Source: Candidatus Thorarchaeota archaeon
GTDB taxonomy: Archaea > Asgardarchaeota > Thorarchaeia > Thorarchaeales > Thorarchaeaceae
Direction: 5' to 3'
Assembly: GCA_016840245.1 (NCBI GenBank)
Contig: JAEOST010000056.1
Coordinates: 1 to 6,759, forward strand
Length of the DNA stretch: 6,759 nt
Position numbers and translations under genes: made by a program. Below, piece after piece: positions 5,132 to 6,759 of this stretch. Position 1 is the stretch's first letter. Each line of letters opens with the position of its first letter. The notes beneath the pieces were generated by a model. It did not search any database. It had not been told where the DNA came from and saw only the letters and a program-made list of their open reading frames with translations.

Positions 5132-6400
5132 ATGGCACAACTAACCTTTCTTGGATCGTGTCGAGAAATAGGAAAATCCGCGTTCTTTCTAGAGCAGAAG
5201 GACGAGAGTTTCCTTATCGATTATGGTACCAAATTCACTAACCCTCCTTCATTTCCCGATCCAGTACCAACAGAAAACCTCCAAGGTGTCGCTGTTACGC
5301 ATGCTCATTTAGACCACTCATGTGGCGTTCCAAGCATCCTTTCTGATTCGTCTGCAATCTCTCTATTCTGTACTCCAGCCACTCGTGATCTTATGACACT
5401 TCTAATACGGGATATGTACAAAATCTCAGGAGGCCGTGTTCCTTTTACAAGAATAGACATTGCACTAGTCAAACGCCAATGTCAAGCCACTGCCTATGAG
5501 GAGACGGTTCCTCTTGGTCACCATTATGAACTAACATTGTTCAATGCTGGTCATATCCCTGGTAGCGCAATGGTGTCTCTGAGAGTAAACGGGAAACGAG
5601 TCTTGTTTACAGGAGACTTCAACGCTAGTGAGTCACGACTACATGCTGGGGTCAGAAAGAACCTCCCCAAACATGATGTTGTTGTAACCGAGAGTACGTA
5701 TGCCCGAAGAGTAAATCCGGACCGTGAGAAGATTGAGGAAGAACTTGTACAGTCTGTTATTGAGACTGTTGAGAACAAGGGTATCGTTCTCATTCCTTCT
5801 TTTGCAGTCGGCCGTAGTCAAGAGATCATGTGTATTCTTGAGTCACATGGTATTCCACAGAAATACCCGATTTACGTTGATGGCATGGCACGTGCTGTCA
5901 ATGATATAGTAGTAAAACACCCAAGATACATTGCCAGTCCGCAATCCTTTGAGAGGGCTGTAGGTCGTGCTCGAACCATCAGGGACAATGACGATCGTAT
6001 GAAAGCAATTCGAAAACCTGGAATCATTATCTCCCCAGCTGGTATGCTGAAAGGTGGTGCATCGCATCTCTATTTCAAGAAACTCTATGACGATGATAGG
6101 AATGCCATTATTCTTGTCAGTTATCAAGTACCCGGAACACCTGGTGCTGAACTGCTTGCCAAGAAGAAGGTAACTATTGGTGGTCGTGTATTCGACGTTA
6201 CTGCTAATCTTCGATATCACCACTTAAGCAGTCACTCTGACTCGAAAGGCCTGATGGACTTGTTGATGAAGATACCTGGTGAACCAGAATTCTATGTTGT
6301 CCACGGCGAATCAGAGTCTTGTGATAAGCTAGCTGAAAAACTAGAAAAGAAAGGTAGACGGGCACATGTGCCCGAGAAGAACGAACAAGCTGAAATCTAG
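5132..6400 (+). CDS. aCPSF2-like metallo-beta-lactamase/beta-CASP ribonuclease
   Basis: This 422-residue protein is a complete beta-CASP metallo-beta-lactamase RNase, related to the eukaryotic 3'-end cleavage factor CPSF73. All metal and catalytic motifs are visible: Asp30 (LIDYGT), HAHLDH at 57-62, His141 (AGHIPGS), Asp162 (FTGDF), motif A Glu187 (ESTYA), motif B His368 (SSHSD) and motif C His391 (VVHGE). The beta-CASP insert spans roughly residues 190-345. There is no N-terminal KH extension, which separates it from the termination factor aCPSF1/FttA; the length fits aCPSF2. aRNase J is the other possibility but is less likely on length and motif context. Members cleave or trim RNA in the cytoplasm using two zinc ions. 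The ATG has only a weak AGGA 11 bases upstream. The gene stands alone behind its own TATA element, and its stop overlaps that of the opposing eL38 gene by four bases. Confidence 0.9.
   Translation: MAQLTFLGSCREIGKSAFFLEQKDESFLIDYGTKFTNPPSFPDPVPTENLQGVAVTHAHLDHSCGVPSILSDSSAISLFCTPATRDLMTLLIRDMYKISGGRVPFTRIDIALVKRQCQATAYEETVPLGHHYELTLFNAGHIPGSAMVSLRVNGKRVLFTGDFNASESRLHAGVRKNLPKHDVVVTESTYARRVNPDREKIEEELVQSVIETVENKGIVLIPSFAVGRSQEIMCILESHGIPQKYPIYVDGMARAVNDIVVKHPRYIASPQSFERAVGRARTIRDNDDRMKAIRKPGIIISPAGMLKGGASHLYFKKLYDDDRNAIILVSYQVPGTPGAELLAKKKVTIGGRVFDVTANLRYHHLSSHSDSKGLMDLLMKIPGEPEFYVVHGESESCDKLAEKLEKKGRRAHVPEKNEQAEI
6335..6374 (-). terminator. candidate terminator of the tRNA-eL38 unit inside aCPSF2 coding sequence
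   Basis: Reading the minus strand, 23 bases past the eL38 stop comes a perfect 16-base palindrome (CGGGCACATGTGCCCG, 6359-6374; six-pair stem with a CATG loop). It is followed by a T-rich stretch with runs of three, four and five T (6335-6354). T-runs are the main archaeal terminator signal. The element lies in the last codons of aCPSF2, encoding RAHVPEK and the Lys-rich segment before it, so the A-richness could also be a coding by-product. Confidence 0.45.
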
Positions 6401-6612
6401 ATTTCACCTGGTTCTGGTCGTGCTTCTACAACCTGACACTTAATCTGCTGAATAATGGTTTCAGCCTGTTGGGGCTCTACGATCAGTGTGTATAGGTACC
6501 TCTGGGTACGGAGTTTGAGTTTCACCTGGTCAGCGTCTCTCTTAACTCGGCACTCCACTGCGTCCTCACTCATCTCCAGGAACTTATCGACATCATGGAT
6601 TTGTTTTGGCAT
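6397..6612 (-). CDS. rpl38e: ribosomal protein eL38 (L38e)
   Basis: This is a small protein of the large ribosomal subunit, shared by eukaryotes and a subset of archaea. From ATG 6612 the product is 71 residues. It opens with MPKQIHDVDKFLEM and later contains VKLKLRTQRYLYTLIV, matching the eL38 pattern (MPRQI.EIK.FL, then VKFK.R.SRYLYTLVV). It lacks any other domain. An ATG five codons upstream (6627) would add MGQYD, but family members start at MPK/MPR, so 6612 is preferred; GGGG (6621-6624) lies eight bases before it. The start is 21 bp from the 3' end of the tRNA gene on the same strand, with no TATA-like element in the GC-rich space just upstream, which suggests a shared transcript. Its TAG stop overlaps the aCPSF2 TAG. 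eL38 is absent from most Euryarchaeota and so bears on taxonomy. Confidence 0.88.
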   Translation of the reverse strand: MPKQIHDVDKFLEMSEDAVECRVKRDADQVKLKLRTQRYLYTLIVEPQQAETIIQQIKCQVVEARPEPGEI

Positions 6613-6656
6613 ATCATATTGCCCCATTTGATTTGGTGGGCCGGGCGTGGATCGAA

Positions 6657-6688
6657 TTCGCGCCCTGTGTCTTTGAGATACACAGAGT
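6657..6688 (-). other. noncanonical tRNA intron in the T-arm (position 53/54), 32 nt
   Basis: The intron separates G53 (6689) from T54 (6656). It folds into a textbook bulge-helix-bulge: a central helix of four G-C pairs (CGCG 6694-6691 with CGCG 6662-6659), a three-base 5' bulge T-G|A and a three-base 3' bulge A-A|T. Inside is an eight-pair intron stem (6687-6680 with 6670-6663, one G-U) and a nine-base loop. Cutting after the second base of each bulge, the splicing endonuclease rule, restores a perfect T-arm. The outer exon helix is poor, as expected for introns outside the anticodon. Confidence 0.88.
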
Positions 6689-6704
6689 CACGCGACCTTC
6701 GCCG

Positions 6705-6733
6705 TTTTCCACAGAATTCATCAGAATCCCGTT
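6705..6733 (-). other. canonical tRNA intron at position 37/38, 29 nt
   Basis: The intron follows A37 (6734) and ends before C38 (6704). Bulges are C-A|A (6735-6733) and A-A|C (6706-6704). The four-position central helix pairs TTCA (6739-6736) with GGAA (6710-6707), with one A-G mismatch at its inner end. A nine-pair intron stem (6732-6724 with 6719-6711, two G-U pairs) carries the loop TGAT. Runs of A at both ends allow the cut to be shifted by a base, but 37/38 gives the best bulge-helix-bulge. Confidence 0.85.
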
Positions 6734-6759
6734 TGTGAAGGCGACGTCATAACCACTAG

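Follow-up and report, generated by a model that had tools for sequence, protein, structure and literature searches.

The window analysed here, a stretch of 6,759 nucleotides from a Candidatus Thorarchaeota archaeon, ends in a short region that the original prediction had read as a tRNA-Val(CAC) gene interrupted by one intron at 37/38 and another in the T-arm. The region raises the question of whether a tRNA gene interrupted in this way is a working gene and, if so, where its T-arm intron came from. How archaeal tRNA introns are gained, move and are lost is an unsettled question, and the Thorarchaeial locus bears on it. We describe the gene and its junctions, the intron family represented in its T-arm and the covariation within that family, and the EndA genes of relatives. 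We consider it very probable that the window carries a working Thorarchaeial tRNA-Val(CAC) gene with two bulge-helix-bulge (BHB) introns, of which the one at position 53/54 comes from a family shared by ten tRNA species.

A tRNA-Val(CAC) gene with two introns at the contig end

The features at the 3′ end of the window are as follows.

6734..6759, minus strand: exon 1 of tRNA-Val(CAC), from position 12 (D-arm) to A37, with the anticodon CAC at 6737-6735; supported by intronless orthologues
6705..6733, minus strand: 37/38 intron, 29 nt; its BHB has an inner helix of 8 pairs and forms three of four central pairs, with A35.G as the mismatch
6689..6704, minus strand: exon 2, positions 38-53
6657..6688, minus strand: 32-nt intron at 53/54, in the T-arm; 6687-6680 pair with 6670-6663 to form the inner helix, and 6662-6659 supply the intron strand of the central helix
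6634..6656, minus strand: exon 3, positions 54-76, with CCA encoded and the CCA end at 6634
6397..6612, minus strand: rpl38e (ribosomal protein eL38), starting 21 nt past the end of the tRNA and conserved beside it in relatives
5132..6400, plus strand: MBL/beta-CASP nuclease, convergent with rpl38e and 95% identical to a Candidatus Thorarchaeota protein

The contig, with a GC content of 43-49%, is Thorarchaeial (Asgard) judging by its MBL/beta-CASP neighbour, as most of the best-matching named relatives of that protein are from Thorarchaeota. The mechanical open reading frame of rpl38e starts at 6627, which is 15 nt upstream of the start seen in relatives, the ATG of MPKQI (6612). The tRNA gene and rpl38e are probably transcribed together, or the former immediately ahead of the latter.

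On the minus strand, positions 6759 to 6634 are confirmed as tRNA-Val(CAC) with introns at 37/38 and 53/54, the 5′-most 11 nt of the gene lying past the contig end. We located the introns by removing one or two segments, demanding a valid cloverleaf, and scoring the results by their stems and BHB pairing; for the window, 11 nt from relatives stood in for the absent 5′ end. The combination of 37/38 and 53/54 ranked first among eight solutions, with three of four central pairs at the former site and four of four at the latter. The spliced product is a standard tRNA with D-, anticodon and T-stems and a TTCGA T-loop, the 5′ strand of its acceptor stem, the partner of CCGGCCC, falling past the contig end, and it agrees with intronless orthologues at the corresponding locus (such as L083-L085), which set position 38 as C. 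Both junctions are fixed, since these orthologues match the spliced product. The predicted identity of the gene, its two introns and their positions thus held, and excision of the 32 nt at 6657-6688 does restore the T-stem with all five pairs and the TTCGA loop. The canonical 29-nt intron at 6705-6733 is likewise supported by the excision search. All 38 solved orthologues begin with GGGC[CAG]GG, a start that the search pattern itself demanded with at most one mismatch.

Standard pattern matching had been expected to see the anticodon arm but no T-arm. ARAGORN reported no gene and Rfam cmscan no match in the window, in part because the gene runs off the contig end. ARAGORN also missed ten of ten complete Val genes with a 53/54, 58/59 or 59/60 intron at the rpl38e loci of relatives, and T-arm introns therefore conceal tRNA genes from a common gene finder.

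Folding of the precursor gave a mixed answer for the 53/54 junction. The predicted BHB with an all G-C centre stands as a layout: the exon strand CGCG (positions 48-51, 6694-6691) can form all four pairs with CGCG in the intron, flanked by two 3-nt bulges, TGA and AAT. Its computed stability does not match, as the fold program assigns the central helix a probability of 0.02 in the full-length window precursor and 0.18 in a local fold, since the intron strand can alternatively be taken up by CGUG. The program favours a competing register for the exon strand of this helix, and forcing the BHB costs 4.2 kcal/mol (-52.3 versus -56.5 kcal/mol for the free fold). In local folds of the 53 family members described below, the BHB is favoured in 49, and the window is one of the four in which its probability is below 0.5. 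At 37/38 the inner helix and the anticodon stem are strong, and the central pairs, which include the A35.G mismatch, have probabilities of 0-0.13.

Truncated halves of tRNA-Val(CAC) exist in one relative, G032, and the window copy could in principle be a decaying pseudogene, with tRNA-Val(CAC) supplied by another gene. We regard this as very improbable, given that every testable stem is intact once the introns are excised and that the truncation in the window is the contig end. Moreover, a D-arm/anticodon pattern run with 0-1 mismatches against 47 genomes, which overlooks Val copies with D-arm introns, found no second Val(CAC)-type match among relatives except in G032. In that genome, the additional matches are two truncated copies of the tRNA-Val(CAC) 5′ half, both of which appear to carry a 37/38 intron and lie near an inverted complete Val gene with a 58/59 intron (L292, G032:C95:600-3700).

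Intron turnover at the orthologous locus

The tRNA-Val(CAC) gene has orthologues beside rpl38e in many relatives. From the best 80 of 385 candidate loci, we took L001-L041, which have at least 64% identity to the MBL protein; two of them are labelled Lokiarchaeota and two only 'archaeon'. The tRNA is present at 39 of the 41, and the other two contigs (L014, L021) stop before it. Twelve of the 39 complete orthologues have no intron, and 27 have introns in ten arrangements. Single introns lie at 37/38 (ten genes), 58/59 (four), 59/60 (three), 53/54 (two), 23/24 (two), 36/37 (one), 45/46 (one) and in the D-arm (one). Three genes carry two introns, with 37/38 and 58/59 combined once and 44/45 and 59/60 combined twice. 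The D-arm intron, in L026, was placed by eye, as the 6-nt variable loop of this tRNA gave no automatic solution, and it may occupy the same site as 23/24. These counts leave out L014 and L021 as well as L042-L080, the last of these sets being from other phyla and including two tRNAs with no solution. The pattern CTAGTGGT caught none of the orthologues in the first 42 loci because the D-loop varies, and a looser search of L001-L080 was used instead.

The window arrangement, 37/38 with 53/54, is an eleventh, apart from the ten found in the orthologues. One orthologous tRNA gene pinned by rpl38e thus displays 12 intron configurations, intronless counted, over 39 rows. Mapped onto a tree of the MBL protein with 39 rows, the window included and L014, L021, L031 and three outgroups left out, they call for at least 20 changes; the 53/54 site alone needs three. 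The position of the window in this tree has weak support (87/79), and some branches are long. The 37/38 intron of the window resembles those of the orthologous Val genes in L029 and L016, and it would be an intron common to orthologous Val genes.

A family of 53/54 introns in Thorarchaeia

Among the long tRNAs of one complete chromosome (G002), a tRNA-Thr(GGT) gene carries a 53/54 intron of 32 nt whose ends match those of the window intron, and the two agree at 24 of 32 letters. Further 53/54 introns occur in tRNA-Thr across the class, alongside intronless copies. A fixed-sequence pattern of the window intron matched only the G002 copy, and a covariance model was required to find the others.

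An alignment of 16 of these elements pairs in 95.3% of its cells, compared with 28-52% in slid controls. Cells with a double change number 49 versus 16.9 in shuffles, and covariation is 0.71 versus 0.255; for the paired share, the double-change cells and the covariation alike, none of 500 shuffles was as high. By a further measure, how many pairs show a double change, the observed value (9, versus 6.9 in shuffles) was equalled in 23 of 500 shuffles. These shuffles ignore kinship between the 16 sequences. Taken as a comparison of sequences, the alignment strongly supports the BHB structure of the 53/54 element.

The covariance model (R1), run with stricter filters and with at most 139 candidates scored in each genome, placed the element at no fewer than 52 sites across 30 of the 47 Thorarchaeial genomes, with a weakest E-value of 7.8e-4; 15 of the 52 are training sequences, and none of the copies in Ser, Ala, Lys, Leu and His tRNAs had been used for training. 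Such recurrence, together with the covariation, makes the presence of the element in the window more than chance. With the window added, the family comprises 53 distinct elements, one of 54 matches (L244) being a duplicate of L010. The exon and intron strands of the central helix are CGCG/CGCG in 31, CGTG/CACG in 16, CGGG/CCCG in one and others in five, with all four central pairs present in 49 of the 53 and three of four in the remaining four.

Once the introns had been excised computationally, ARAGORN recognised a tRNA spanning the junction in 47 of the 53, window included, as follows.

Thr(GGT): 13
Thr(CGT): 10
Ser(CGA): 10
Val(CAC): 3
Ala(GGC): 3
Lys(TTT): 2
Leu(GAG): 2
His: 1
Lys(CTT): 1
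Ala(CGC): 1
mis-called: 1

We reread the mis-called element as Lys(TTT) and one element that ARAGORN had not called as Ala(GGC), and five are left with no isotype. The family therefore spans ten tRNA species, counted by anticodon, and seven amino acids (Thr, Ser, Ala, Lys, Leu, His and Val), with His resting on the ARAGORN call alone. In two elements, L239 and L275, the spliced T-stem would carry an A53.C61 mismatch (GCGAA/CTCGC); L239 is a displaced remnant.

Probable transfer between tRNA genes

A family shared by so many tRNA species can be accounted for by descent within each gene, by transfer between genes, or by repeated origin. The nearest neighbour of an element is of the same isotype in 43 of the 53, some isotypes having been set by hand from the 3′ end, and descent is therefore the rule and transfer between isotypes the exception.

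The window intron is probably one such exception. With the exon-pairing end excluded, it is most similar to Ala and Ser introns, scoring 32, compared with a best-of-52 score averaging 21.2 (sd 3.1) in a null matched for composition and structure (P 0.005). These closest partners are similar rather than identical and come from other genomes. The two other Val 53/54 introns, those of L010 and L040, are matched best, and weakly, by Thr(CGT) introns (scores 21 and 13). The window copy is thus closer to Ala and Ser introns than to those of its own isotype, which points to transfer between genes. Simple descent of the window intron together with the other Val 53/54 introns is disfavoured, because the site needs three changes on the tree and the introns differ in their nearest neighbours.

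It might be argued instead that the 53/54 intron arose separately in each tRNA gene, and that the likeness reflects a shared structural demand for CGYG pairing, an A-rich bulge and a short hairpin. The BHB does constrain the intron ends, the three Val 53/54 introns are unlike one another, and the preponderance of same-isotype neighbours is what such an origin would give. However, the likeness extends to the unconstrained hairpin, where it exceeds the null matched for structure and composition. In addition, the window intron resembles the G002 Thr intron at P 0.0002, a value for a single partner chosen for looking alike. We therefore hold separate origins to be fairly unlikely.

Instead, the sequence comparisons suggest that a family of small 53/54 introns appears to have moved between many different Thorarchaeial tRNA genes. 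The window copy most likely came from an Ala- or Ser-type tRNA gene, whose T-stem would offer C-G-Y-G to a 53/54 intron, by a route that we infer from these likenesses. The window gene is most useful as an entry to this traceable mobile family.

Displaced genes and 3′-end remnants

In 6 of 36 loci surveyed (L001, L002, L004, L024, L040 and L041), a remnant of a tRNA-Val 3′ end lies 26-30 nt before rpl38e, each with P up to 0.025 in mononucleotide shuffles, at which level about one of the 36 loci would be expected by chance; the survey leaves out L026, L029 and L031. A seventh remnant, in L006, is weak (P 0.06). The remnants occupy the place at which the intact gene terminates in most of the other genomes (26-41 nt, with two at 54 and 71); at the remnant loci, the intact Val gene is found either shifted upstream by 133-169 nt or in inverted orientation.

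Introns are present in 11 of 12 displaced Val genes and 16 of 27 undisplaced ones, where 'displaced', a category defined by hand after inspection of the data, means a gap of more than 100 nt or the other strand. This difference lacks significance (Fisher's test, 0.063 two-sided and 0.044 one-sided; p 0.06-0.25 in phylogenetic pairs), and noncanonical introns considered alone are about equally frequent in the two groups (5/12 versus 11/27, p 1.0). The association of displaced Val genes with introns is suggestive only.

Similar remnants are found beyond tRNA-Val. In L320 (G029:C314:17256-17476), a complete Thr(GGT) gene is followed by a displaced 3′ half carrying a 53/54 intron; this remnant appears to start at the anticodon loop, and the 3′ flank, CTTCTTCT, is repeated. 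In L318 (G034:C16:11314-11790), a complete Ala(GGC) gene with two introns is likewise followed by a displaced 3′ half with a 53/54 intron. Among the 53/54 matches, the solver recognised no 5′ half in five (L275, L242, L269, L239 and L243). Split tRNA genes were considered as an explanation, and two of the five, in G029 and G034, turned out instead to be 3′ halves displaced beside a complete gene. In L242, L275 and, doubtfully, L269, 53/54-type elements are followed by tRNA 3′ ends, and these may be remnants, heavily interrupted genes or split genes.

It is tempting to speculate that tRNA genes gain and lose introns through integrating elements, which would exchange the 3′ half of the gene for an attP-borne copy with its own introns and leave the old half downstream as a scar. 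The remnants in six Val loci with displaced or inverted intact genes, the Thr(GGT) and Ala(GGC) genes trailed by 53/54-bearing remnants, and the counts of introns in displaced and undisplaced Val genes would fit such a process, and a similar model has been put forward for Caldiarchaeum (PMC3293823). Against it stand the lack of significance of the association with displacement and its post hoc category, the one remnant locus in 36 expected by chance, and the window itself, where the Val gene lies at the usual spacing, 21 nt from rpl38e, with no space for a remnant. We think this replacement model unlikely. Its broadest form, in which the intron state of Thorarchaeial tRNA genes is set largely by recombination, with elements swapping 3′ halves, each swap bringing or removing T-arm introns of the mobile family, and the discarded halves persisting as scars, is a speculation that we hold to be no less doubtful. 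If true, introns would be both cargo of and barriers to integration.

The Caldiarchaeum case concerns a tRNA-Thr(GGU) locus at which intron gain and tRNA fragments occur together and an integrating element is blamed, as the text of that report presents it (PMC3293823). It involves one population, a 24/25 intron and a 5′ fragment, whereas the Thorarchaeial set is class-wide and consists of displaced 3′ ends. Having an orthologous locus, an intron family and 3′-end scars together makes both transposition and integration-driven replacement testable in closely related genomes.

Thorarchaeial introns among those of other archaea

Transfer between genes, which we favour for the 53/54 family, has precedents. 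In Thermoproteales and other Crenarchaeota, noncanonical BHB introns are described at positions from 20/21 to 59/60, 53/54 included, with several per gene, as here (PMC4090602). Their spread between tRNA species in Thermoproteales is ascribed in that account to intron transposition (PMC4090602). The crenarchaeal introns belong to another lineage, and the family described here is likened to them by kind and position; in Thorarchaeia, by contrast, the changes can be traced at one rpl38e-adjacent locus over 39 genomes.

Closer relatives also provide a parallel. The Asgard classes Atabeyarchaeia and Freyarchaeia have introns at noncanonical positions and many multi-intron genes, as do Thorarchaeia, with 92-95% of tRNA genes in three genomes reported to contain introns, often noncanonical ones (PMC11291895). 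These are different Asgard classes, and the account given of their introns mentions no intron family or transposition, with Thorarchaeota named in the references (PMC11291895). The two-intron gene had been judged notable as a case in another lineage; the class is indeed a different one, but two other Asgard classes had already been reported, and the claim is to that extent reduced. T-arm introns, transposition and multi-intron Asgard tRNAs are all published, and what is new within the literature searched is their occurrence in Thorarchaeia. That literature, drawn mostly from outside subscription journals and not including preprints, yielded no report of Thorarchaeial tRNA introns. A two-intron Val gene is ordinary in kind for archaea with a broad-specificity EndA.

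The splicing endonuclease

The original prediction had called for a two-subunit EndA, and its genes are found in relatives: PF01974 is present in 47 of 47 Thorarchaeial genomes and lies at two separate loci in 41. The stronger copy (alpha) has the Y/H/K motifs, which we take to be the catalytic positions, in all 30 examples examined, and the other copy (beta) lacks the His in seven of seven read. From these relatives we infer the EndA of the organism in the window. A catalytic alpha with a non-catalytic beta is, at the level of sequence, the composition expected for broad specificity.

The best solved relative of the Thorarchaeial alpha is the Aeropyrum pernix subunit 3p1z_B (E 1e-44), to which it aligns with no gap over the Crenarchaea-specific loop. 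The A. pernix loop residues K44-P45-R46 are matched by K-P-K in the Thorarchaeial alpha; it is K44, P45 and R46 that are named as loop residues in A. pernix EndA (PMC12397907). By this alignment, the loop Lys would lie near the active site. The Crenarchaea-specific loop of the (alpha-beta)2 EndA of A. pernix is thus also a feature of the Thorarchaeial catalytic subunit, although the former is a crenarchaeal enzyme and the latter an Asgard protein that we know here from its sequence. A heterotetrameric EndA, with a catalytic subunit bearing the Crenarchaea-type loop and a non-catalytic partner in a presumed assembly, would cut the precursor at both 37/38 and 53/54, and the exons would be ligated after both cuts.

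The IRKPK loop occurs in 30 of 30 Thorarchaeial alphas (29 by a stricter count) and, by alignment, in eight of eight alphas from other genomes, L125-L154 and L276-L283 being the loci of these alphas, and is absent from all nine beta rows of the alignment. Of the eight, three are Baldr-, Borr- and Hermodarchaeal and five are Bathyarchaeia-type, Culexmicrobium and Thermoprotei-labelled. In the text of a published account, the loops of broad-specificity EndA are suggested to have been acquired independently in Crenarchaea and eukaryotes (PMC12397907). The presence of the loop in Asgard catalytic subunits, 30 Thorarchaeial and three others, bears on that suggestion.
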